Shown: positions 1,849 to 13,252 of the stretch, piece after piece
How the letters are laid out: every line of letters starts with the position of its first letter
Numbering within the stretch: position 1 is the first letter of the stretch
Assembly (NCBI GenBank): GCA_030837345.1
Contig: JAUPKQ010000225.1
Coordinates: forward strand, 1 to 32,702
Length of the DNA stretch: 32,702 nucleotides
Source: Actinomycetota bacterium
GTDB lineage: Bacteria; Actinomycetota; Actinomycetes; Actinomycetales; Kineosporiaceae
Direction of reading: 5' to 3'
Translations under genes and position numbers: made by a program
Notes under the pieces: generated by a model
The model's database searches: none
Told to the model about the DNA's origin: nothing
Seen by the model: only the letters and a program-made list of their open reading frames with translations

Positions 1849-3071
1849 CGCGGCTCCTCCTTCGGCAGCACATCCTCCGGTGACCCGCCACCGACGTAGT
1901 GCCTCGGGACACGGGCTCCCAGACGGGTGACGATCTCGTAGCTGATGGTTCCGCAGGCGTCGGCCCAGTCCAAGGCCGTGGGCTCGCCACCGGTGCCCGG
2001 GCCGAAGAGGACGGCGACGTCGCCCACCCGGACGGCGTCCGTCAGGCCGTCGAGGTCCAGGACGACCTGGTCCATGCAGACACGCCCGGCGATCACTCTG
2101 CGGCGTCCCCCGAGCAGGACGGGCCCGGACCCGCTCGCGTGCCGGGGAAGCCCGTCGCCGTAGCCGAGAGGCAGCAGGGCGAGGGTGGTCGCGGTCGAGG
2201 TGACGTGCGTGAGGCCGTACGAGACGCCCTGGCCCTCGGGGACGTCCTTGACCATCACGACCCGGCTCACCAGCGACATGGCGGGCCGGAGGCCGAGCTC
2301 GGCGCTCGTCGCGAGATCGGGCATGGGGCTCAGACCGTAGACGGCGAGACCCGGCCGGACGGCGTCGAACCGGGCGTCCGGGAGCGCGAGGGTCGCCGCG
2401 GAGTTGGCGAGGTGCCGCAGGGTCAACTTGGCCCCGGCCCGCTGGACGAGCTCGACGGCGTCGGTGAACTGGGTGATCTGCGCCGACACCGAGGGGTGGG
2501 TGGGTGCGTCCGCGAAGGCGAGGTGGGAGAAGATCCCGACCACCTCGACGAGACCTTCGGCCTGGTGGCGGAGGGCGGCCGCGATCAGGTCGGGCAGGTC
2601 CGCGGGCAGGCAGCCATTGCGCCCGAGACCCGTGTCGATCTTGAGGTGCAGGCGGGCGGGCACACCCGTCGTCCGTGCCGCGGCGGCGGCCTCCTCCAGC
2701 GTCCACAGCGCGCTGATCCCCAGATCGACCCCGGCCGCCACCGCCTCGGTGAAGCGGTCCCCCGGCACGAGCAGCCAGGCGAGGACCGGTTCGGTGATCC
2801 CCGCGGCCCGCAGCGCCAGGGCCTCTGACAGCAGGGCGACCCCCAGCCAGCCCGCTCCCCCGCGGAGGGCGGCGCGGGCGGTCGGGACCATGCCGTGCCC
2901 GTAGCCGTCCGCCTTGACGACGGCGATGACCGCCGCGTCACCCGCCACGAGGCTCAGGGATCGGACATTCTCCTCGATCGCGTCGAGATCGACGATCGCG
3001 CACGCGGCGATCCCGGGCGGCATCCGCCCCTCGGACGTGATCTCCTGCGGGACGGTCTGTGCCTTCGTCAC
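1845..3071 (-). CDS. alr: Alanine racemase
   Basis: A 408-residue PLP-dependent fold-type III racemase that converts L-alanine to D-alanine for peptidoglycan. The PLP lysine is Lys53 in VVKADGYGHG, and the second catalytic base is Tyr285 in GVSYGLTHV. The KIDTGLGRNG motif (near residue 144), RPGLAVYG (near 239) and CMDQ in the C-terminal beta domain are all present. I chose the GTG at 3071 because it overlaps the upstream TGA as GTGA with GGAG before it. An ATG at 3089 would add six residues and has a weaker ribosome site; a later ATG (17th codon) is also possible. It is translationally coupled to the hydrolase downstream. Confidence 0.95.
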   Translation of the reverse strand: MTKAQTVPQEITSEGRMPPGIAACAIVDLDAIEENVRSLSLVAGDAAVIAVVKADGYGHGMVPTARAALRGGAGWLGVALLSEALALRAAGITEPVLAWLLVPGDRFTEAVAAGVDLGISALWTLEEAAAAARTTGVPARLHLKIDTGLGRNGCLPADLPDLIAAALRHQAEGLVEVVGIFSHLAFADAPTHPSVSAQITQFTDAVELVQRAGAKLTLRHLANSAATLALPDARFDAVRPGLAVYGLSPMPDLATSAELGLRPAMSLVSRVVMVKDVPEGQGVSYGLTHVTSTATTLALLPLGYGDGLPRHASGSGPVLLGGRRRVIAGRVCMDQVVLDLDGLTDAVRVGDVAVLFGPGTGGEPTALDWADACGTISYEIVTRLGARVPRHYVGGGSPEDVLPKEEPR

Positions 3072-4594
3072 CGGTCCAGTCTCCAGCATCGGTCCCGGCG
3101 CAGCTCGGCGACCACGTCGGGGACGGCCGCGACGACGTCCCCGGCCACGATCGGAGCGATGCCCCCTCGCGAGGCGAGCGCCGCCGCGCGGGCGTGGGCG
3201 AACGCCGCGACCCCGGCGGCGTCGAACGGATCGAGGCCCGCGGCGAGGAGGGTTCCGGCGATCCCGGCGAGGACGTCGCCCGCACCGGCCGTGGCGAGGA
3301 CGGCCGGGGCGTCCGCCGAGGTCCGGCACCGGCCGTCGGGGGCCGCGATCACCGTGATCGAGCCTTTGAGGAGGACGGTCGTCCCCGTGAGCTCGGCGGC
3401 CCACCGGGCATGGGCGAGCGGCGCGGCCCGGACGTCGTCCGCCGAGGTCGCCCCCACGGACCCGCCCCAGGTTGTCAGGAGCCTGGCGAGTTCCCCGGCG
3501 TGCGGAGTCGTCACGTGCCAGGAGTTCAGCAGGGAACGCGGCCCCGGGCGACTGATCACCTCCAGGGCGCCGGCGTCGACGACCGCCGGCAGGCCTGAGC
3601 CGAGGGCTTCGGCGATCACGGTGTCCTGGCCGTCGCCGGCGCCGGGATCGACACCGCTGCCGAGAACCCAGGCCTGCACCCGCCCCCGGCCGACGACGGC
3701 CTCAGGCCACCGGGCGCGCACCTGGTCGGCGGCCGCCGTGGGACCGGTGTACCGGACCATTCCGGCACCGGCCCGCAGGGCACCGCCGACCGAGAGGACG
3801 GCCGCGCCGGTGTAGGACGCGGAGCCGGCGACGACGCCCACGACCCCGCGCGTGTACTTGTCGTCCTCCGGGCCCGGCCGCGGCCAGAGCCGCGCGGCGT
3901 CGGACCCGGTGATCCTGTCGACGGCGGGGGCCGCCGGCAGGTACGGGCGAAGACCGATGTCGACCAGATGGACCACCCCGGCCGCGCGCGCCGCCGGGGG
4001 GAGCAGCAGGCAGGGCTTGAGGGCACCGAACGTCACCGTGACGTCCGCGCGCACATGCGGGGCCGGGGTGGTCCCGCCGTCCGCGTCGACCCCGCTGGGC
4101 AGGTCGACGGCGACGACGCACGGGCGCCGCGCCACGCCGTCCAGCGCGGCGACGAGGGACGCCGCCGGTTCCCGCAGGCCGGGGGCACCGCCGAGGCCGA
4201 CGATACCGTCGACGACGAGATCGGCACGGGTGAGCAGCTCGCGGGCACGGTCACCGCCGTCCGGGCTCACGACGACCACCCGGGCACCGGCGGCACGCAG
4301 GGCCGTCAGACCTTCCGCGTGCGCCGACCGGGCAAGAAGCAGGGCGTCGACCCGGACACCGCGTCCGGCGAGGCTGCTGCCCGCCCACAGAGCGTCACCG
4401 CCGTTGTTGCCCGCCCCGACGAGCAGGACGACGCGGGAACCGGTGACCCTCCCCCGGCGGGACCGAAGCTCCGCGAGACAGACCGTGGCGAGCCCGGCGG
4501 CGGCCCGCTGCATCAACGCGCCCTCGCTCGCCGCCGCGAGGGCGGCCTCCTCGGCCGCCCGGACCGTGGCGACGTCGTGGGCGATCTCGTTCAC
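3068..4594 (-). CDS. nnr: Bifunctional NAD(P)H-hydrate epimerase / ADP-dependent dehydratase
   Basis: A 508-residue fusion that repairs hydrated NADH and NADPH. The N-terminal YjeF_N epimerase half carries GAGNNGGD (residues 60-67) and VDLPSGVD (163-170). The C-terminal ribokinase-like dehydratase half starts near residue 240 and has GVVGVVAGS (250-258), TPHAGELARL (363-372), LLKGS (408-412) and the catalytic AGAGD with Asp440. The glycine usually following NNGGD is alanine here, a mild variation. GTG start, 4 bases after the acpS stop; the stop overlaps the alr start. The sequence shows no separate promoter, so it is likely cotranscribed with acpS and alr. Confidence 0.93.
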   Translation of the reverse strand: MNEIAHDVATVRAAEEAALAAASEGALMQRAAAGLATVCLAELRSRRGRVTGSRVVLLVGAGNNGGDALWAGSSLAGRGVRVDALLLARSAHAEGLTALRAAGARVVVVSPDGGDRARELLTRADLVVDGIVGLGGAPGLREPAASLVAALDGVARRPCVVAVDLPSGVDADGGTTPAPHVRADVTVTFGALKPCLLLPPAARAAGVVHLVDIGLRPYLPAAPAVDRITGSDAARLWPRPGPEDDKYTRGVVGVVAGSASYTGAAVLSVGGALRAGAGMVRYTGPTAAADQVRARWPEAVVGRGRVQAWVLGSGVDPGAGDGQDTVIAEALGSGLPAVVDAGALEVISRPGPRSLLNSWHVTTPHAGELARLLTTWGGSVGATSADDVRAAPLAHARWAAELTGTTVLLKGSITVIAAPDGRCRTSADAPAVLATAGAGDVLAGIAGTLLAAGLDPFDAAGVAAFAHARAAALASRGGIAPIVAGDVVAAVPDVVAELRRDRCWRLDR

Positions 4595-4598
4595 CCGC

Positions 4599-4967
4599 TC
4601 ACGCCCGGCCCGGATCGGCCCGCTCGGCGACGACGACCGCGCTGGCGATCCCCGCGTCGTGGGACAAGGAGAGGTGGAACCGCTCCACGCCCAGTTCCGC
4701 CGCCCGGGCCGCCACCGTGCCGGTCACCTCCAGCCGTGGAGCCCCGTTCGGCTCCCGCACGACGGTGACGTCGGTCCAGCGCAGGCCCACCGGGGCGCCG
4801 AGCGCCTTCGCGATCGCCTCCTTCGCGGCGAACCGGGCGGCGAGGCTCTGGGCGGGCAGGCCCTGCTCCGACTCCGTGAACAGCCGCGCGGCGAGCCCCG
4901 GGCTGCGGGCGAGTTGCCGTTCGAACCTGGCGATGTCGACGACGTCGATCCCGACCCCCGCGATCAC
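4599..4967 (-). CDS. acpS: Holo-[acyl-carrier-protein] synthase
   Basis: A 122-residue phosphopantetheinyl transferase of the AcpS type. It moves the 4'-phosphopantetheine of coenzyme A onto acyl carrier protein. The two Mg-binding acidic residues are visible: Asp8 in GIDVVD and Glu50 in [12 protein letters not shown]. The SLSHD motif is near residue 99. The length is normal for this trimeric family. It starts with GTG, 31 bases after the glmS stop. A coenzyme A-making enzyme, coaA, lies 3 kb away on the other strand, so CoA supply and CoA use are neighbours. Confidence 0.95.
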
Positions 4968-4998
4968 GATGCAGAGCCTGTCACGTCCGGTGGTCCGA

Positions 4999-6855
4999 CT
5001 ACTCGACCGTGACGGATTTGGCCAGGTTGCGGGGCTGGTCGACGTCCAGGCCCTTCGCGGTGGCGAGCTCGCAGGCGAAGACCTGGAGCGGGACGACCGT
5101 CACGAGAGGGGCGAGCAGGGTGGGGGTCGGGGGGATCCAGATCACGTCGTCCGCGTAGGGCACGACGTCCTCGTCGCCCTCCTCGGCGATGACGATCGTC
5201 CGGGCTCCACGCGCGTTGATCTCCTGGATGTTGGAGACGACCTTGCTGTGCAGGACATCCCGGTTACGCGGCGAGGGGACGATGACGAACACCGGCTGGC
5301 CGGGCTCGATCAGGGCGATCGGGCCGTGCTTGAGCTCACCGGCGGCGAAACCCTCGGCGTGGATGTAGGCGATCTCCTTCAGCTTGAGCGCGCCCTCCAT
5401 CGCGACGGGATACCCGACGTGACGGCCGAGGAAGAGGACCGAGCGGGTGTCGGCCATCCAGCGAGCCATCGCGCGGACCTGCCCGATGCCGTCCAGCACC
5501 TTCTGGATCTTCTCGGGCATCGCCTGGAGCTGCCCCATGATCTCGCTGATCTCGTCGGCGAACTTGTTGCCCCGAAGCTGTGCCAGGTAGAGCCCGAGCA
5601 GGTAACACGCGGTGATCTGGGCGAGGAACGCCTTGGTCGACGCGACAGCGATCTCCGGACCGGCGTGGGTGTAGAGCGCGGCGTCGGACTCGCGGGGAAT
5701 CGTCGATCCGTAGGTGTTGCAGACGGCGACGACCCTGGCACCCTGCTCGCGCGCGTGCCGGACGGCCATGATCGTGTCCATCGTCTCGCCGGACTGGGAC
5801 ACCGCCACGACCAGGGTCTTCTCATTCACCACCGGGTCGCGGTACCGGAACTCGTGGGCGAGCTCGACCTCGCACGGGATCCGGCACCAGTGCTCGATGG
5901 CGTACCTGGCCACCTGGCCCGCGTACGAGGCCGTCCCACAGGCGATGATCACAATCTTGTCGATGCTGCGCAGGACGGTCTCGTCGATGTGCAACTCGTC
6001 GAGCACGAGACGCCCAGAGGGATCGACGCGGCCACGCAGGGTGTCCGCGACGGCTTGCGGCTGCTCGTTGATCTCCTTCGCCATGAAGCTCGGGAAGCCA
6101 CCCTTCTCGGCGGCCGCCGCGTCCCAGTCGACGTGGAAGTGGACGCCGTCGGCGGGGACACCGTCGAAGTCGGTGATCGAGACCGAGGACGCCGTGATCG
6201 TCACGACCTGGTCCTGGCCCATCTCGATCGCTTCCCGCGTGTGCCCGATGAAGGCGGCGACGTCGGATCCGAGGTAGTTCGCGCCGTCCCCGAGCCCGAC
6301 GACGAGGGGGGAGTTACGACGGGCCGCGACCACCGTGCCGGGGACGTCGGCGTGCACGGCCAGCAGGGTGAAGGCCCCCTCCAGGCTGCGGGCGACGGCA
6401 CACATCGCGGCGGGCAGATCGCCGGTCTCCGCATAGGCCTTCGCCAGCAGGTGGGCCGCGACCTCGGTGTCGGTCTGGCTGGCGAACCCGACCCCGTCGG
6501 TGAGGAGCCCGGCCTTCAGCGAGGCGAAGTTCTCGATGATCCCGTTGTGGATGACGGCGACGGTCCCGTCACCGCCCAGGTGGGGATGGGCGTTGGCGTC
6601 GGTGGGGGCGCCGTGCGTCGCCCACCGGGTGTGGCCGATACCCGTGACCGACGGGGGCAGCGGGTCCTCGTCCAGGAACTCGACCAGCCGCGCGAGCTTG
6701 CCCGCCTTCTTGGCGGTGACCAGCCGTCCGTCCGTCTGGAGCGCGACGCCCGCCGAGTCGTATCCCCGGTACTCCAGGCGCCGCAGTCCCTCAAGGACGA
6801 CATCCTGGGCCTGAGGACCCGCCGCCGTGCCTGCGTACCCAACGATTCCGCACAT
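4999..6855 (-). CDS. glmS: Glutamine--fructose-6-phosphate aminotransferase (isomerizing)
   Basis: Encodes 618 residues, the first enzyme of the UDP-GlcNAc route, making glucosamine-6-phosphate from fructose-6-phosphate and glutamine. Met-Cys-Gly-Ile opens the class II amidotransferase domain, with Cys2 as nucleophile. GHTRWATHG, the HNGIIEN box and the TDTE motif follow. Two SIS sugar-isomerase domains follow, with SQSGETMDT near residue 354 and [13 protein letters not shown] near 495. The C-terminus ends [11 protein letters not shown], the family signature. No glmS ribozyme structure is evident upstream. A TACGCT box 7 bases before ATG could be a -10 element giving a leaderless mRNA (weak evidence). 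Confidence 0.97.
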
Positions 6856-6953
6856 GGGGACCAGCGTATCGGCCGCTCCCGAACGCCCGGTAGCACCACA
6901 CGAGGCGCCGAGGCGCCAGCCATCGAGCCGCCCTCGCGCGAGCAGCCCACACG

Positions 6954-6988
6954 CGAGGGGCCCGTCCGCGCGACGGACGGGCCCCTCG
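6954..6988 (-). terminator. Terminator hairpin after chitosanase
   Basis: A perfect 15-bp inverted repeat (arms 6954-6968 and 6974-6988, 5-nt loop) lies 10 bases beyond the chitosanase stop. No U-tract follows, which is common for high-GC actinobacterial terminators. It separates chitosanase transcription from glmS. Confidence 0.85.
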
Positions 6989-6997
6989 GACCGGTGA

Positions 6998-7852
6998 TCA
7001 GGAGAGAATCTCGAACTGATCGCCGTATACGGCCCACTTCAGAGGTGGGTTGAGATCCAGGTTCCCGTTCTTGAGGAAGACCCGTTGGGCGGTGTCCACG
7101 CGGCTCGTGTCGGAGTGGGCCTCCTCAGCGCGCATGGCATCCGCCCGGACGTCGAGGAAGGCGTTCAGGTAGGCGGTCTCGTCGCCGCCCTCGGACGGCG
7201 GGTCGGCCTTGTCGAGCGCCGCGGCCCGGATCCCGCCGAACGAATCCGAGCTCTCACCGGGCCCGTGCATGACGATGGCGTCGTAGTAGATGAACTGGCC
7301 CAAGGCGTTCAGACCGTCCGCCTTGGCCTGATTGACGGCCGGGTCGAAGTACATCGAATCCCGCAGATCGTCCTGGGCCTTCGTGAACTCCGCCGTCGCC
7401 GCCGCAGCCTTCCACGCCTGGGGGTACCCGTCGAGCCCGGCGTGCGAGGACGAGCCGTCGACCTTCCGCAGTGCCGGGAGGTACCTGGCGAGGGGGTTGT
7501 CCGGTACCCGGCTCGTGTAGAGCGTGACGAGTTCCAGGGCGTCCCCGGTCCCGGTCGTGAACCCGATGATGCCGGAGGTGTAGCCGCGTCCGTCCCCGAT
7601 GTCCTCGATGTAGGAGTACTGGGCCTTCCAGTCGAGGGAGGAGTTCTCCGCGCTCGACACCAGCTTCATCGCGATCTCCTTGCGCGCCGGGTCGCTGAGG
7701 TCGGACCGGGAACCCTGCGTGGAGACCTCTGTGGTCGAGGAGGCGGCGGCCTGGGGCGCGGCGGCCTGGGACAGCGACGGGACGGCGACCGCGATCCCTC
7801 CGGCGAGGACGGCGACTGTCGCGACGGAGGCGACGCGGGACGGCAGGTACAT
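6998..7852 (-). CDS. csn: Secreted chitosanase, glycoside hydrolase family 46
   Basis: A 284-residue endo-chitosanase that cleaves beta-1,4 glucosamine links in chitosan outside the cell. Residues 1-30 look like a signal peptide: MYLPSR, a hydrophobic stretch, then SLSQAAA as a probable cleavage zone. The catalytic pair aligns with Glu22/Asp40 of the Streptomyces N174 enzyme: Glu69 in SSAENSS and Asp87 in [10 protein letters not shown]. The conserved [16 protein letters not shown] and [11 protein letters not shown] blocks are intact, so it should be active. The ATG at 7852 is chosen over upstream possibilities because it begins the signal peptide and has GGAG upstream. It is monocistronic, ends at a strong terminator, and diverges from coaA. 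Confidence 0.95.
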
Positions 7853-8155
7853 GGCGACTCCAGAAGACCCCGGGAACGAACCGGGCCGATCGGACTCCGG
7901 CCTCACCCACCTTGGCCGGGATCACCTGAAGGTGGTCTTATGTCAGGCTTGTCTTTCGCCCAGGCGTTGATCGAGCCACCGGGGACACCCTCCGGACGTC
8001 CTCGCCGAAGTCCCCTGACGCGCGACCCGGACCGCTGCTTCCGGCGCTCCCGGCGGACCAGGCAGAATGCCACGGTGCGAGTGCCCGCGAAGTCGCAGGA
8101 GAACGCCCCCCGCAGGCGCCGCCCGGTGCCACGCGATCCCCATCGGGAGAACCCG
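7853..8155. promoter_or_regulatory. Divergent intergenic region chitosanase / coaA
   Basis: About 300 bases without a gene. It holds CCACCTT (7907-7913) and AAGGTGG (7929-7935), a perfect 7-bp inverted repeat, and inside it the dyad CACCTGAAGGTG (7923-7934), which extends imperfectly to 18 bp. These sit 70-83 bases before the chitosanase start and could be an operator. A TAAGAC box for the minus strand lies just upstream of them (weak). On the plus strand CAGAAT (8063-8068) resembles a -10 box for coaA. Confidence 0.45.
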
Positions 8156-9100
8156 ATGGCCCGTCTCGTCGGCTCTCCCTTCGTGGAACTCGACAGGCCC
8201 GCCTGGAGCCGGCTGCGGGAGAACACCCCCCTGACGCTCACCGAGAACGACCTCCAGCGGCTGCGCGGTCTCGGTGACCTCATCGACCTGACCGAGGTCG
8301 AGGAGGTCTACCTCCCGCTCAGCCGGCTGATCGACCTCTATGTCGCGGGAACGGACCATCTGCACAACGCCACCTCGACCTTCCTCGGCGAGGCGCCCGC
8401 ACGGACTCCGTTCGTCATCGGGATCGCCGGCTCCGTCGCGGTCGGCAAGTCGACGACCGCCCGGATCCTGCGGGAGCTGCTCAGCCGCTGGTCCCACACC
8501 CCGCGGGTGGAACTGATCACGACGGACGGCTTCCTGCTCCCCAACGCCGAGCTCACCCGCCGTGGCCTGATGCACCGCAAGGGGTTCCCCGAGTCGTACG
8601 ACCGGAGGCGGCTGCTGCGGTTCGTCAGCGACGTCAAGTCGGGGGTCCCGGAGGTGCGGGCCCCGGACTACAGCCACCTGACGTACGACATCGTCCCGGG
8701 GGGGGAGGTCGTCGTCCGATCGCCCGACGTCCTGATCGTCGAAGGACTCAACGTCCTCCAGCCGACCCGGCCGCGCGCCGACGGCCGGACAGGGCTGTCG
8801 GTGAGCGACTTCTTCGACTTCTCGATCTACGTCGACGCCCGGACGGAAGATGTGCGCAGCTGGTACGTCCAGCGTTTCCTGCGGCTGCGGGAGACGGCGT
8901 TCAGCAGGCCGGAGTCGTATTTCCACCGCTATGCCTCACTGAGCGACGACGAGGCGGTCCTGCGGGCGGAACAGATCTGGCGCGACATCAACGAGGTCAA
9001 CTTGGTCCAGAATGTGCTGCCCACCCGGGCCCGGGCGACGCTCGTGCTCGCGAAAGGCGCCGACCACACCGTCCGGCGGGTGCGCCTGCGCAAGCTCTGA
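8156..9100 (+). CDS. coaA: Pantothenate kinase, type I (CoaA)
   Basis: A 314-residue kinase phosphorylating pantothenate, the first and controlling step of coenzyme A synthesis. The P-loop [12 protein letters not shown] covers residues 89-100. The typical [33 protein letters not shown] and [10 protein letters not shown] segments follow in order. The length fits prokaryotic type I PanK. The ATG at 8156 has GGGAGAA upstream. An in-frame GTG at 8075, 7 bases after a possible CAGAAT -10 box, would give a leaderless start with a basic 27-residue extension, so the start is not certain. It is the only housekeeping gene on the plus strand in this window. Confidence 0.94.
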
Positions 9101-9102
9101 CG

Positions 9103-9130
9103 GGCCTCTACTGACAGGCCTCAACTGACA
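9103..9130. repeat. 14-bp tandem near-duplicate
   Basis: GGCCTCTACTGACA (9103-9116) is followed directly by GGCCTCAACTGACA (9117-9130), one mismatch, just after the coaA stop. It looks like a local slippage duplication and has no evident function. Confidence 0.7.
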
Positions 9131-9158
9131 GCCCCGGGCGGGAACGCTTCGAACGACG

Positions 9159-9190
9159 AAGGCCCCGGACGGTTGCCGTCCGGGGCCTTT
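9159..9190. terminator. Bidirectional terminator coaA / rpsI
   Basis: Perfect 14-bp stem (arms 9159-9172 and 9176-9189) around a TTG loop, with T residues after the plus-strand arm. It lies between convergent coaA and rpsI, so it probably ends both transcripts. Confidence 0.88.
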
Positions 9191-9207
9191 CGATGATCCG
9201 TGAGGGA

Positions 9208-9705
9208 TCAGCGCTTGCTGTACTGAGGCGCCTTGCGGGCCTTCTTGAGACCGGCCTTCTTGCGCTCCTTCACCCGGGCGTCACGGGTGAGGAAACCGGC
9301 CTTCTTCAGGTTCGGGCGGTTCGCGTCGGCGTCGATCTCGTTCAGGGAGCGGGCCACCCCGAGGCGCAGCGCGCCGGCCTGGCCGGAGCTGCCGCCGCCG
9401 TGGATCCGGGCGATGACGTCGAAACGACCCTCGAGGTCGGTGACCCGGAAAGGCTCGTTCACGAGCTGCTGGTGCACCTTGTTGGGGAAGTACTCCTCAA
9501 GGGTGCGGCCGTTGATCTTCCAGGTCCCGCTGCCCGGGACCAGGCGGACCCGGGCGATGGCCTCCTTGCGGCGACCCGTCGCGGCACCGGGAGCGGTGAT
9601 GCTGGCCCCGCCACCGCGGGTCTCCGGGGTGGTGGTGGTGTAGCTGCTCGGCGCCTCTTCGACGTCGACGACGTCGGCCTCGGGCTCGCCAGTGGTCTCG
9701 GCCAC
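9208..9705 (-). CDS. rpsI: Ribosomal protein uS9
   Basis: A 165-residue small-subunit protein whose C-terminal tail reaches the P-site tRNA. The S9 core begins near residue 40 ([13 protein letters not shown]) and ends in the invariant YSKR tail. Residues 1-40 are an acidic, Thr-rich extension ([12 protein letters not shown]) of the kind seen in many actinobacterial S9 proteins. GTG start, 43 bases after rplM, with which it forms the usual L13-S9 pair. It ends at the bidirectional terminator. Confidence 0.97.
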
Positions 9706-9748
9706 GGTTCTCCTCGTTCTCCTTCGGTGCGATCCAGGCCGTGGCTGA

Positions 9749-10213
9749 CTACTGCGCGACCTGCGTAATGGTGAAGGGCTGCGGCTTCTGAGCGGCGTGC
9801 GGGTGCTCGGCGCCGCGGTACACCTTCAGCTTGGACAGCTGGTGCCGGCCCAGCGTGTTCTTGGGGATCATGCCCCGCACGGCCTTCTCGACGGCGCGCT
9901 CGGGGAACTTGTCGAGCAGCTCGGCGTAGCCGACGGCGCGCAGGCCGCCCGGGTAGCCCGAGTGCCGGTAGGCGAACTTCTGGTCCCGCTTCGACCCCGT
10001 CAACGCCACCTTGTCGGCGTTGATGATGATGACGAAGTCACCCGTGTCGATGTGCGGGGCGTAGATGGCCTTGTGCTTGCCCCGCAGCAGCGTGGCCGCC
10101 TGCGTGGCCAGCCGGCCGAGGACGACGTCGGTAGCGTCGATGACGTGCCAGCGCCGCTCGATGTCGGCAGGCTTGGGGGTGTACGTGCGCACAGTCGTAG
10201 CCTTCGTCCTCAT
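9749..10213 (-). CDS. rplM: Ribosomal protein uL13
   Basis: A 154-residue large-subunit assembly protein. Recognisable segments are [18 protein letters not shown] near residue 20, [16 protein letters not shown] near 57, the RHSGYPGG box near 83, and [10 protein letters not shown] near 113. The C-terminus ends with HPHAAQKPQ, as usual in actinobacteria. It leads the two-gene rplM-rpsI operon. A well-formed promoter (TTGACC, 18 bases, TAACGT) lies upstream, leaving a leader of about 105 bases that contains a GACGCC/GGCGTC hairpin (10255-10283) and the palindrome CCGTCGACGG (10287-10296), which may take part in control. Confidence 0.97.
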
Positions 10214-10325
10214 CCGGATGGTCTCGTGGAGCGCCCCGCGCTTCTCGCGAACGAGACGCCGGACGACCGCACGCTCTGGCGTCCCGCCGTCGACGGACCG
10301 TAAACCCAGAGCACAACGACCTCAC

Positions 10326-10355
10326 ACGTTACCGGTGCGCCCCTCGGAGGGTCAA
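10326..10355 (-). promoter_or_regulatory. rplM-rpsI promoter
   Basis: On the minus strand, TTGACC (10355-10350) and TAACGT (10331-10326) are separated by 18 bases, a good match to the housekeeping sigma consensus. The start of transcription is predicted near 10319. The rest of the gene-free stretch 10214-10556 holds the rplM leader and an AT-richer patch (10415-10452, two ACAATT copies) that may promote the plus-strand lipoprotein genes, but no clear -35/-10 pair is visible there. Confidence 0.7.
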
Positions 10356-10556
10356 AACGCGTCACGACGACGCCGGTCTCCAGTGATGAGCCCATGGTCA
10401 GACGGCGGCACGTATCACAATTCGTGAGGCGCGACAACGACAATTGGGATATCGGCCGCCGTGGACGTCGCGCTCTGCAACGATGCTGCGGGCCAGCTGC
10501 ACCTGTGGACCTGTCTCCCGACAGCACCGCAGGACCGCAGAACACCAGGAGGTCAC

Positions 10557-11102
10557 ATGTCCAGCTCAGGCAGCCCGGCACCGCAGCCACGAGCGCTGAC
10601 GTTCCACGCCCGCAGATCGGTCGTGGCGTTCGCCGCCGTCGTGGCGCTCCCCCTGTCCTTGACCGCGTGCGGCCTGCTCGGAGGCAACAAGGAGGACGAA
10701 GCTCCCGTCGTGATCCCCGGCGAGGCCGTTGACGAGAGCGTCAACTCGTCGTCACCGGCGCCGTCCCTGCCGCCCCAGGCTGCGGCATCACCCGTTCAGG
10801 TTACCGTCACGGCCGAGGCGGCGGCGGCAGCTCCGGGCGAAACGGTCGTCAAGACCGGAGTCGTCGTCCAGAAGTCGACGCAGTACCTGATGCGTACCCG
10901 CACGGCGACGTCCGTCGCGATAGTGACGCTTCCCCGGGCGACCGTCGTCCAGACCCCTCTCGGGGGCACGGTGACCGATGTGAGGACGGCGACCAAGATG
11001 TCGACGATCACCCGCACCGGCGACCCGACGACGATCACCGTCACCGTCAGGGTGCCTGGAGGCACCGCCACGGGTCAGAACGGCGGGGCGGGGGGCCAGT
11101 GA
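10557..11102 (+). CDS. Thr/Val-rich lipoprotein, paralog 1
   Basis: Encodes 181 residues; I recognise no family. AGGAGG sits 5 bases before ATG. The N-terminus has two arginines, a hydrophobic core and a lipobox LTAC with Cys38, so it should be lipid-anchored on the outer face of the membrane. After Cys38 comes GLLGGNKEDEAPVVIPGE, then a low-complexity Ser/Pro/Ala region. The C-terminal 90 residues are rich in Thr-Val alternation (VTVTAEA, RTRTATSVAIVT, ATKMSTITRTGD, ITVTVRV), suggesting extended or beta structure. No catalytic motif is seen. It shares the N-terminal layout and PVVIPGE with the next gene, and its TGA overlaps that gene's GTG, so the pair is an operon. Confidence 0.8.
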   Translation: MSSSGSPAPQPRALTFHARRSVVAFAAVVALPLSLTACGLLGGNKEDEAPVVIPGEAVDESVNSSSPAPSLPPQAAASPVQVTVTAEAAAAAPGETVVKTGVVVQKSTQYLMRTRTATSVAIVTLPRATVVQTPLGGTVTDVRTATKMSTITRTGDPTTITVTVRVPGGTATGQNGGAGGQ

Positions 11103-11722
11103 ACGACGTGACGCCCGCGCCGCCGGTGACGCCGACGGCGCGGCCCGCCCGGACCGCGCCCGGTCCCGGTCCCGGGTCCCCCCGCGCCCTGAGAGTCCAG
11201 AAGACCTTGAGGGTCCGGAAGGCCGGGATGCTCCTGGTGTCCACTCTGGCGTTCCCCCTCGGGCTCACCGCCTGCGGCCTGGTGAACTCCGGCGGCGACG
11301 ACACCCAGGCGCCGGTGGTCATCCCCGGAGAACAGGTCCCGGGTTCCGAGTCCGTCACGAGCGACACCAGTGACGTCGCGAGTCTCTCCTCCGCGGCGGT
11401 CACCGGCTCCGTCGCAGGCTCCGTCGCGGGCTCGACGGCGCCGCCGGCCGCCGTGTCCTCCGTCGCGGCGGCACCGGCCCCCGTCACCGTCACCTCGACG
11501 GACGTCGTCGTCCGGCGCGAGACCCGTCTTCGTACCGTCACCAAGGTGCCCCCGGCGGTGACGAGGACGCCGCCCCCGGTGACACAGACGACCACCCAGA
11601 CGCAGACCGAGACCGAGACGCAGACCCAGACGCAGACCCAGACACTGATCTCGGTGCTTCCCGCGAAGACCCTGACGAGGACGGCGACCAAGACGGTCAC
11701 CAAGACCGTCACGAAGAAATAG
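11099..11722 (+). CDS. Thr/Val-rich lipoprotein, paralog 2
   Basis: Encodes 207 residues; family not recognised. The lipobox LTAC ends at Cys59, preceded by a 43-residue Pro/Arg-rich region, unusually long for a lipoprotein signal. A start at TTG 11207 or ATG 11228 would give a normal length, but the GTG at 11099 overlaps the upstream stop as GTGA. After Cys59 it has GLVNSGGDDTQAPVVIPGE, matching paralog 1, then a Ser/Ala/Val linker with SVAGSVAGS. A run of Gln-Thr and Glu-Thr dipeptides follows near residues 161-182, and the basic tail is TKTVTKTVTKK. It may be a cell-envelope stalk or spacer, but that is a guess. Convergent with the phytase. Confidence 0.75.
   Translation: MNDVTPAPPVTPTARPARTAPGPGPGSPRALRVQKTLRVRKAGMLLVSTLAFPLGLTACGLVNSGGDDTQAPVVIPGEQVPGSESVTSDTSDVASLSSAAVTGSVAGSVAGSTAPPAAVSSVAAAPAPVTVTSTDVVVRRETRLRTVTKVPPAVTRTPPPVTQTTTQTQTETETQTQTQTQTLISVLPAKTLTRTATKTVTKTVTKK
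11581..11646 (+). repeat. Gln-Thr / Glu-Thr coding repeat
   Basis: Degenerate tandem hexamers of the form CAGACC, CAGACG or GAGACC encode about ten alternating Gln/Glu-Thr pairs inside lipoprotein paralog 2. Copy number could vary between strains through slippage. Confidence 0.8.
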
Positions 11723-11730
11723 GTCACCCG

Positions 11731-11788
11731 GACACCGCGCGCCGGGAGGACGCGCCGAGAGGGCGCGGGGTCGGGGGCTCCCGGTGTC
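11731..11788. terminator. Nested bidirectional terminator
   Basis: GACACC (11731-11736) and CCGGGAG (11742-11748) can pair with CTCCCGG (11778-11784) and GGTGTC (11783-11788), partly as alternatives. They enclose a second hairpin, CGCGCC-gagag-GGCGCG (11751-11767). It sits between the convergent lipoprotein operon and phytase. Confidence 0.75.
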
Positions 11789-13157
11789 AGGAGTCCAGGG
11801 CGAAGACCTGGTCGAATCTCACGAGTTTCAAGTTGGAGCTTCCGTCGCCGCCGACGTTGTCGGCGTCGTGGACGACCATGAGCCCGTTGGGATAGGACGG
11901 CCCGAGGTCTCCCGCGCCGATCGAGAGCCCGTCGGTCTCGCTGACAGCGTCGATCGACCCCTTGGTGCCGACGGCGAAGTTCCCACGGAAGGCATTGCCG
12001 CCGCCGAGGTCGTAGACCGCGAACGTCGAGTTGCCCTGGCTCGACGCGACGATCACGCCCTTGCCGTCCTTGCCGCGGCCGATCGCCAGCCCTTCGACGT
12101 CCGCGTCGAGATGGTCGCCGACGCGGTCCACGGCCGTCCTCGACGCTCCCGCCGACGGTGCCAGCGGGTATTTCCAGATGCCGACGTCCTCCTCGGCGAT
12201 GTACAGCGTGTTTCTGGCGTCGTCGACGACGCAGCCTTCCGACAACGAGCCGACGTTGAGGGAACGCACCTTGGCCGCGTCCACCTTTCCGCCGGTGAGC
12301 TTGAGCTCGTACTGCTCGAAGACCCCCGACTCCTCCCCGGAGACGAAGGCGTACGTGTGGGCGCCGTCCGAGCTGCGACCGAGGCAGAAGCCGTAGTTCT
12401 GGTCGACAGAGGCCAAGGGCCTCGCCTCGATCGAGGAGAGCGTTCCGCGCGTCCCGTCGAGGGACCAGAAACGCATCGTGTTGTTCGAGCGATCGTTCGC
12501 CCCGACCAGGTTGATCGTCCGGCCGCCGAGCTTGACGCCGGAACGCACGTCGACGTTCCCGATCTTGCCGCCGGGCGAGTAGTGCACCAATTTGCCGCGC
12601 AGGTCGAAGACCGCCACCCCACCGGAGTCGGCCTTGTTGTCCGCCAGGATGAAGCTGCGGTCGGGCCGGGCCGGGTTGCGCCACACGGCGCTGTCGTCGG
12701 CGACGTCCTCGCGGGGCTGGTCCGGGAAGAGTTCGGTCTCCACGGACGCGAACACCGGCGGCGGCCCGCCGGGTCCGGAGGTCGGTGGCGCCCCGCCGTC
12801 CTTGATCAACGGCTCGACCCCGCCCCGGGCCGACCGGGTCGTCGTCCGGGTGGCCGCGGCGGGCTGGCTCGGGCCTCCGGCCAGGGCGGTCCGGCGCTTC
12901 GGGTCGCCGGCTGGCCGGGTCTGCGACGGCGGCGAGGACGACGACGGCGAGGACGACGTGGTGACGGACGGTGACGCGGTCGCCGAGGAGGAGGGCGACG
13001 GGACAAGACCGCTCTCGCTGGCGGACGAGGCCGCCGCCACGGGCACGATGTAGTCGTCCGGCGTCCGGGATCCGTAGCCGGACGTCGCCACCTGGACGGC
13101 GATCGTCGACAACCCCGCCAGGATTCCCGCTGTGATCATCCTGGTCCTGCGTCGCAC
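11787..13157 (-). CDS. Secreted beta-propeller 3-phytase
   Basis: A 456-residue calcium-dependent phytase that releases phosphate from phytate outside the cell. GTG at 13157 has AGGGGAG upstream and opens VRRRTR plus a hydrophobic signal segment (residues 7-25). A Ser/Pro/Thr-rich linker spans about residues 40-135. The propeller domain begins near residue 137 with DDSAVWRNP, typical of beta-propeller phytases, followed by SFILADNKADSGGVAVFDL, GKIGNVDVR, GFCLGRS, a SEGCVVDD block and DVEGLAIGRG, and ends SNLKLVRFDQVF. Length and motif order fit an intact enzyme. An alternative start is ATG 13139. The upstream region has an elaborate promoter with inverted repeats, suggesting regulation, plausibly by phosphate. 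Confidence 0.9.
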   Translation of the reverse strand: MRRRTRMITAGILAGLSTIAVQVATSGYGSRTPDDYIVPVAAASSASESGLVPSPSSSATASPSVTTSSSPSSSSPPSQTRPAGDPKRRTALAGGPSQPAAATRTTTRSARGGVEPLIKDGGAPPTSGPGGPPPVFASVETELFPDQPREDVADDSAVWRNPARPDRSFILADNKADSGGVAVFDLRGKLVHYSPGGKIGNVDVRSGVKLGGRTINLVGANDRSNNTMRFWSLDGTRGTLSSIEARPLASVDQNYGFCLGRSSDGAHTYAFVSGEESGVFEQYELKLTGGKVDAAKVRSLNVGSLSEGCVVDDARNTLYIAEEDVGIWKYPLAPSAGASRTAVDRVGDHLDADVEGLAIGRGKDGKGVIVASSQGNSTFAVYDLGGGNAFRGNFAVGTKGSIDAVSETDGLSIGAGDLGPSYPNGLMVVHDADNVGGDGSSNLKLVRFDQVFALDS

Positions 13158-13183
13158 CGCCGGCTCTCCCCTGTCGCTGCGAA

Positions 13184-13252
13184 TACCGCCGATCTGCACA
13201 CTATTCGGAAGATCGGCGGTACCAAAGCCCGAAGGTTAACTCCTGCGTTAAC
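13184..13252 (-). promoter_or_regulatory. Phytase promoter with inverted repeat and twin GTTAAC boxes
   Basis: The -10-like TAGTGT (13203-13198) sits between two arms of a perfect 11-bp inverted repeat, 13184-13194 and 13211-13221 (spacer 16 bases). A TTGGTA lies 16 bases upstream of the -10. Two identical GTTAAC boxes (13235-13240 and 13247-13252, offset 12) are just upstream. Their position and direct repetition recall phosphate-regulator boxes, which in this phylum usually repeat every 11 bases. Confidence 0.6.

Follow-up and report, generated by a model that had tools for sequence, protein, structure and literature searches.

In the available text of two sources, the O-glycoproteins of Streptomyces coelicolor include lipoproteins (PMC6593405), and the targets of protein O-mannosyltransferases (PMTs) are described as serine and threonine residues of proteins secreted through the Sec or TAT pathway (PMC12757957). 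In the same portion of the former study, lipoproteins of named function are mostly binding proteins, enzymes and signalling modulators, and CseA and AfsQ3 are glycosylated Streptomyces lipoproteins for which a role in modulating two-component systems is proposed (PMC6593405). Here, two adjacent genes were analyzed in a window of 32,702 nucleotides, which is the whole stretch of DNA examined, from an actinobacterium of the family Kineosporiaceae. The initial annotation had described their products as tandem paralogous lipoproteins without a recognised family, and our analysis confirms the observation of a duplicated lipoprotein pair; it is an orphan pair, ordinary in kind. The locus is organized as follows.

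9208-9705, upstream and divergent from the pair: rpsI (PF00380)
9749-10213, upstream and divergent from the pair: presumably rplM (named by reading)
10557..11102, forward strand: lipoprotein precursor 1, 181 aa, ATG start, predicted lipid cysteine C38, APVVIPGE at residues 49-56, Thr/Val/Ala/Gly tail
10701..10724, forward strand: codons of APVVIPGE in gene 1 (pattern match)
11099..11722, forward strand: lipoprotein precursor 2, 207 aa, GTG start, predicted lipid cysteine C59, APVVIPGE at residues 71-78, Thr/Val/Ala/Ser tail with a TQTQ stretch and the C-terminal end TKTVTKTVTKK
11309..11332, forward strand: codons of APVVIPGE in gene 2 (pattern match)
11594..11643, forward strand: hexanucleotide array ACCCAG, 8.3 copies, encoding the TQTQTETETQTQ stretch in the gene 2 tail
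11687..11717, forward strand: 12-base repeat, 2.6 copies, encoding the TKTVTKTV end of protein 2
11723..11786: 64-base gap to the phytase gene, with a strong hairpin
11787-13199, reverse strand: phytase (PF02333, E 2.2e-75), downstream and convergent
Beyond the phytase: truA (PF01416), rplQ (PF01196) and, presumably, rpoA (named by reading)

The claim of two coupled genes at 10557-11722 proved exact in its coordinates. The frames overlap by four bases (11099-11102, GTGA), with the GTG start of gene 2 overlapping the stop of gene 1. An overlap of this start/stop type is a usual sign of coupled translation, and the two lipoprotein genes are probably translated in this way. An AGGAGG sequence stands ahead of the ATG of gene 1 (10557). 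The promoter scan returned no sigma-70-like site, although such a scan says little for a GC-rich actinobacterium, and no Rfam match reached the gathering threshold within 10100-11900. Third-position GC is 0.85 in gene 1 and 0.91 in gene 2 and is unchanged in the low-complexity tails, compared with 0.61-0.69 in the upstream gap, whichever of the three positions is taken. Because DNA shuffled to the same make-up also gave open frames in 161 (gene 1) and 178 (gene 2) of 5000 trials, frame length by itself is not decisive; both frames are regarded as real genes because of the protein sequence that they have in common.

This common sequence establishes the two proteins as paralogs. They align by BLASTP with 46% identity over 63 aa (E 8e-12), and none of 2000 shuffles of protein 2 reached the observed score, either for the whole protein or for the signal part up to the lipid cysteine. 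The mature N-terminus, taken to 12 residues past PGE, scored 67 against 59 for the best shuffle (0/2000), and the likeness of the pair therefore extends beyond two signal peptides. The matching N-terminal layout noted at the outset (PRAL, LTACGL and APVVIPGE) is present in both translations. Within its own genome, protein 1 matches only itself and its neighbor, and protein 2 matches the pair and two further places at E 0.7 and 1.4. A Nei-Gojobori count gave a dS of about 1.3 and a dN of about 0.55 for the core block, and about 1.0 and 0.78, respectively, for the tail, the alignment of which is uncertain. Given these dS values, the duplication is not recent. The pair seems to have arisen by ordinary gene duplication within the lineage and does not look like a novel type of system. 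The APVVIPGE peptide is identical in both proteins and begins 11 residues past the lipid cysteine in protein 1 and 12 residues past it in protein 2. Six of its eight codons differ between the genes, and every change is silent, leaving no residue changed. For comparison, dN is 0.35 in the block holding the peptide and 0.78 in the tail; the stretch was chosen after being seen, and this contrast in constraint is therefore descriptive.

The tails are rich in threonine and valine, with 19% Thr, 15% Val and 14% Ala in the first and 25% Thr, 16% Val and 12% Ala in the second. The initial annotation had called them divergent Thr/Val/Lys repeat tails, and this holds for threonine and valine. Lysine enrichment is confined to the end of protein 2 (3 Lys in 125 tail residues of protein 1 versus 6 in 129 of protein 2). 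The tails are not fully divergent but show a weak likeness; 7 of 2000 shuffles reached the score observed for the tail alone. Frame-neutral repeat units such as those in gene 2 could alter tail length without a frame shift. AlphaFold2 models built from two-row alignments had a mean pLDDT of 36.9 for the first protein and 49.5 for the second; the second model contains low-confidence strands between residues 130 and 206. These low-confidence models fit disorder but do not separate it from a lack of alignment. Both proteins are small, predicted to be lipid-anchored and probably disordered.

By reading, a positively charged start, a hydrophobic stretch and a lipobox (LTAC) ending in cysteine are present in both HARRSVVAFAAVVALPLSLTAC and RVRKAGMLLVSTLAFPLGLTAC. 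Lgt and LspA, of which both proteins would be substrates, are encoded in the same genome. The genome (G000) also encodes a PMT-type protein O-mannosyltransferase (C42:15442-16701, reverse strand), in which PF02366 and PF16192 lie on the same strand and in the same register of one 597-aa open frame. Among 14 control genomes, PF16192 is matched only in Corynebacterium glutamicum. A second PF02366 match was found on another contig of the genome (C73). Because Lgt, LspA and a PMT are present, because the tails are of low complexity and rich in threonine, and given the cited facts on PMTs and glycoproteins, we infer a lipid-anchored, flexible and possibly mannosylated wall chain.

Database searches bore out the statement that the proteins belong to no recognised family. 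Neither protein had a match above the curated cut-off in Pfam or NCBIfam, the mature parts (144 and 149 aa) included, and PADLOC and the PDB sequences returned no match. Below the cut-off, Pfam gave LPAM_MltD (E 0.063) and FAM75 (E 0.049), and NCBIfam gave GltJ (E 1.5). Weak PHROGs matches were to families without an assigned function (phrog_21399 at E 0.0074 and phrog_542 at E 0.021 for protein 2; phrog_542 at E 0.45 for protein 1). Plasmids searched with protein 1 and phages searched with protein 2 gave no match, and pattern searches yielded 55 matches in viral contigs and 20 in GTDB genome contigs, none confirmed as a homolog. Among the literature titles listed, none concerned such a lipoprotein pair.

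Profile searches across related genomes likewise confirmed no homolog among 98 relatives, 396 genomes of the order and 396 genomes of the phylum. Four of the 98 relatives matched, including the own genome; by reading, two of the three foreign loci, L003 and L004, encode solute-binding lipoproteins, and the third (L005) has no lipobox near the match. Among the order genomes, 18 matched, the own genome counted, with a best foreign E of 3.4e-5; G006 and G010 among them belong to the same family. At 14 of the 17 foreign loci, the frame has a lipobox but continues into a different mature protein, and three (L033, L039 and L041) contain no readable lipoprotein frame. Five phylum genomes matched, again including the own genome, and the five foreign places in the other four (L126-L130; best E 4.2e-7) are all lipoproteins with other mature parts. 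Overall, 21 of the 25 foreign places are lipoproteins with other mature parts, and four are without a readable lipoprotein frame. Neither VVIPG nor two aliphatic residues followed by PGE occurred in any lipoprotein frame read at the foreign loci; the readable profile matches are alike only around the signal peptide. The sample includes 13 genomes of the family, the own genome being the sole one of its genus. All 13 carry rplM, and the stretch upstream of it, covered in 9 of the 12 relatives, holds other genes in all nine according to a simple gene finder, with the motif absent from both strands. On this evidence, the pair looks lineage-restricted.

A search for PVVIPGE behind a lipobox in other actinobacteria, as proposed earlier, was run on the 396 order genomes. 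The exact APVVIPGE pattern occurred at two places in the own genome and at one in G296, which belongs to another family of the order, and the peptide is therefore not a widely shared element. When 89 loci around rplM (1,529,368 bases) were scanned on both strands, the single match was in a short L115 frame that does not look lipoprotein-like. In G296, EAPVVIPGE also lies behind a lipobox (L131:1345-1926, forward strand), and the protein that carries it contains an AMIN-like domain (PF24837, 48.5 bits). When this protein was searched in 121 genomes of its family, matches were found in 55. The matches listed comprise 29 other loci (30 including that of G296 itself), of which 25 are readable as a lipoprotein frame, all without APVVIPGE; L142, L146, L152 and L165 had no frame passing the readable-lipoprotein filter. 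Several of these relatives carry phrases such as FIEGDSQSPNYP in place of the VVIPGEESQSANYP of G296. APVVIPGE was rejected as a shared element. The occurrence in G296 is probably due to chance, although a lipobox precedes the motif at all three places in the sample.

The pair lies between core ribosomal loci, as had been noted: rplM-rpsI flanks it on one side, and the phytase gene and then truA-rplQ flank it on the other. These neighbors give no pointer to a shared pathway. Folding of 11700-11800 gave a z of -2.68, with 3 of 200 shuffles folding as well. The hairpin in 11723..11786 is a possible terminator; no terminator-like site with a T run was found there. Elsewhere in the window, a GH46 (chitosanase family) protein is encoded beyond rpsI (6998-7906, reverse strand; E 3e-98), and a probable glmS, with SIS and glutamine-amidotransferase domains (4999-6855, reverse strand), lies near a gene that combines YjeF N-terminal and carbohydrate-kinase domains in a single protein (3068-4594, reverse strand; PF03853 and PF01256). 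Across genera, the stretch from rplM to truA/rplQ holds a hydrolase gene of varying kind: the phytase in the window, a pullulanase in L019 (genus g6, 3915-9815), a GH53 protein with CBM2 in L022 (g5, 818-2401), and endonuclease/exonuclease/phosphatase proteins in L023 (g2, 4341-6410) and L025 (g3, 5547-7421). In the fifth other genus (L024, g4), a cation-transport ATPase takes the place of the hydrolase. This stretch may be a variable accessory-gene site inside the ribosomal region.

The reading as a duplicated envelope component is supported, its placement in the envelope resting on the predicted lipobox. Neither of the two outcomes named beforehand as refuting it, a clear match to a known family or an absence of paralogy, was observed. 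We tentatively favor, at somewhat less than an even chance, the explanation that the genes encode tandem, lineage-restricted, lipid-anchored lipoproteins whose flexible and possibly mannosylated tails serve as a passive coat, spacer or tether in the wall. Both proteins would be exported, most likely by Sec, lipidated by Lgt and cleaved at the cysteine by LspA. The tail, as a flexible chain, would then project from the membrane into the cell wall, and its many threonines might be O-mannosylated by the genome's own mannosyltransferase. The role of this wall-spanning chain would be passive, and short in-frame repeats could let its length drift. Partner binding, or the setting of the tail's orientation, would fall to a single site, the APVVIPGE kept beside the anchor. 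However, the retained duplicate and the conserved anchor-near motif argue for a more specific role than a passive coat. APVVIPGE could be a docking peptide for a lineage-particular envelope partner, displayed by the pair on two tails differing in length and charge, a proposal we consider unlikely. If it were true, the pair would represent a small taxon-restricted lipoprotein family with its own partner.

An alternative is that the pair modulates an envelope sensor or enzyme. APVVIPGE would then dock on a partner in the membrane, with the tail acting only as its spacer. The peptide near the anchor shows no residue change while changes occur elsewhere, the two genes overlap, and CseA and AfsQ3, in the available text of PMC6593405, offer a precedent of glycosylated lipoproteins proposed to modulate two-component systems. 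However, the adjacent genes, divergent rplM-rpsI and the convergent phytase, include no sensor or regulator, and neither Pfam nor NCBIfam gave a match to such a family. This role appears rather unlikely. That the lipoproteins are accessories of the nearby hydrolases (the phytase at 11787-13199 and the GH46 protein at 6998-7906), for example by keeping them at the cell surface, draws on proximity only and on the hydrophobic, export-signal-like stretch with which, by reading, both hydrolases start. It is highly improbable: the phytase gene is convergent and set apart by a hairpin-rich gap, the GH46 gene lies beyond rpsI, and neither lipoprotein has a carbohydrate-binding or anchoring domain in Pfam. 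Low-complexity tails, the lack of a homolog found elsewhere and the open frames in shuffled DNA (161 and 178 of 5000 trials) could suggest that the frames are decaying or arose by chance, with a start that resembles a signal peptide. This suggestion is barely credible, as adjacent frames share a lipobox and APVVIPGE with silent codon changes in the motif, third-position GC is 0.85-0.91, and AGGAGG precedes the first ATG.

The locus is a clear example of in situ duplication of an orphan lipoprotein gene within a ribosomal neighborhood, with one peptide held constant and the tail drifting. It can serve work on orphan surface genes and on O-mannosylation in actinobacteria, but it opens no long-standing question; closer attention to the kept peptide is warranted only if relatives are found. 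Among known systems, solute-binding and other lipoproteins, the nearest being L126 of G417 (E 4.2e-7), have a signal peptide and lipobox in common with the pair. L126 reads PLSLAACGLVDSVGDDAKAPS and resembles the window proteins up to about 12 residues past the cysteine. However, it is a protein of about 400 aa, sugar-binding-like by reading and without VVIPGE, whereas the window proteins lack such a domain, no periplasmic binding-protein domain being found above the cut-off in either by Pfam or NCBIfam. The AMIN-like lipoprotein of G296 has a lipobox, then a Ser/Thr/Pro linker and then EAPVVIPGE. Its AMIN-like domain (48.5 bits) sets it apart, as the window proteins are not listed for PF24837 up to E 5, and its readable relatives have other letters where G296 has APVVIPGE. 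For the O-mannosylated actinobacterial lipoproteins, no sequence relation of the pair to a named member was found, and glycosylation of the pair is putative; as far as the available text of PMC6593405 and PMC12757957 describes them, the pair resembles these proteins in its lipobox, its Thr-rich region and the presence of a PMT in the host.
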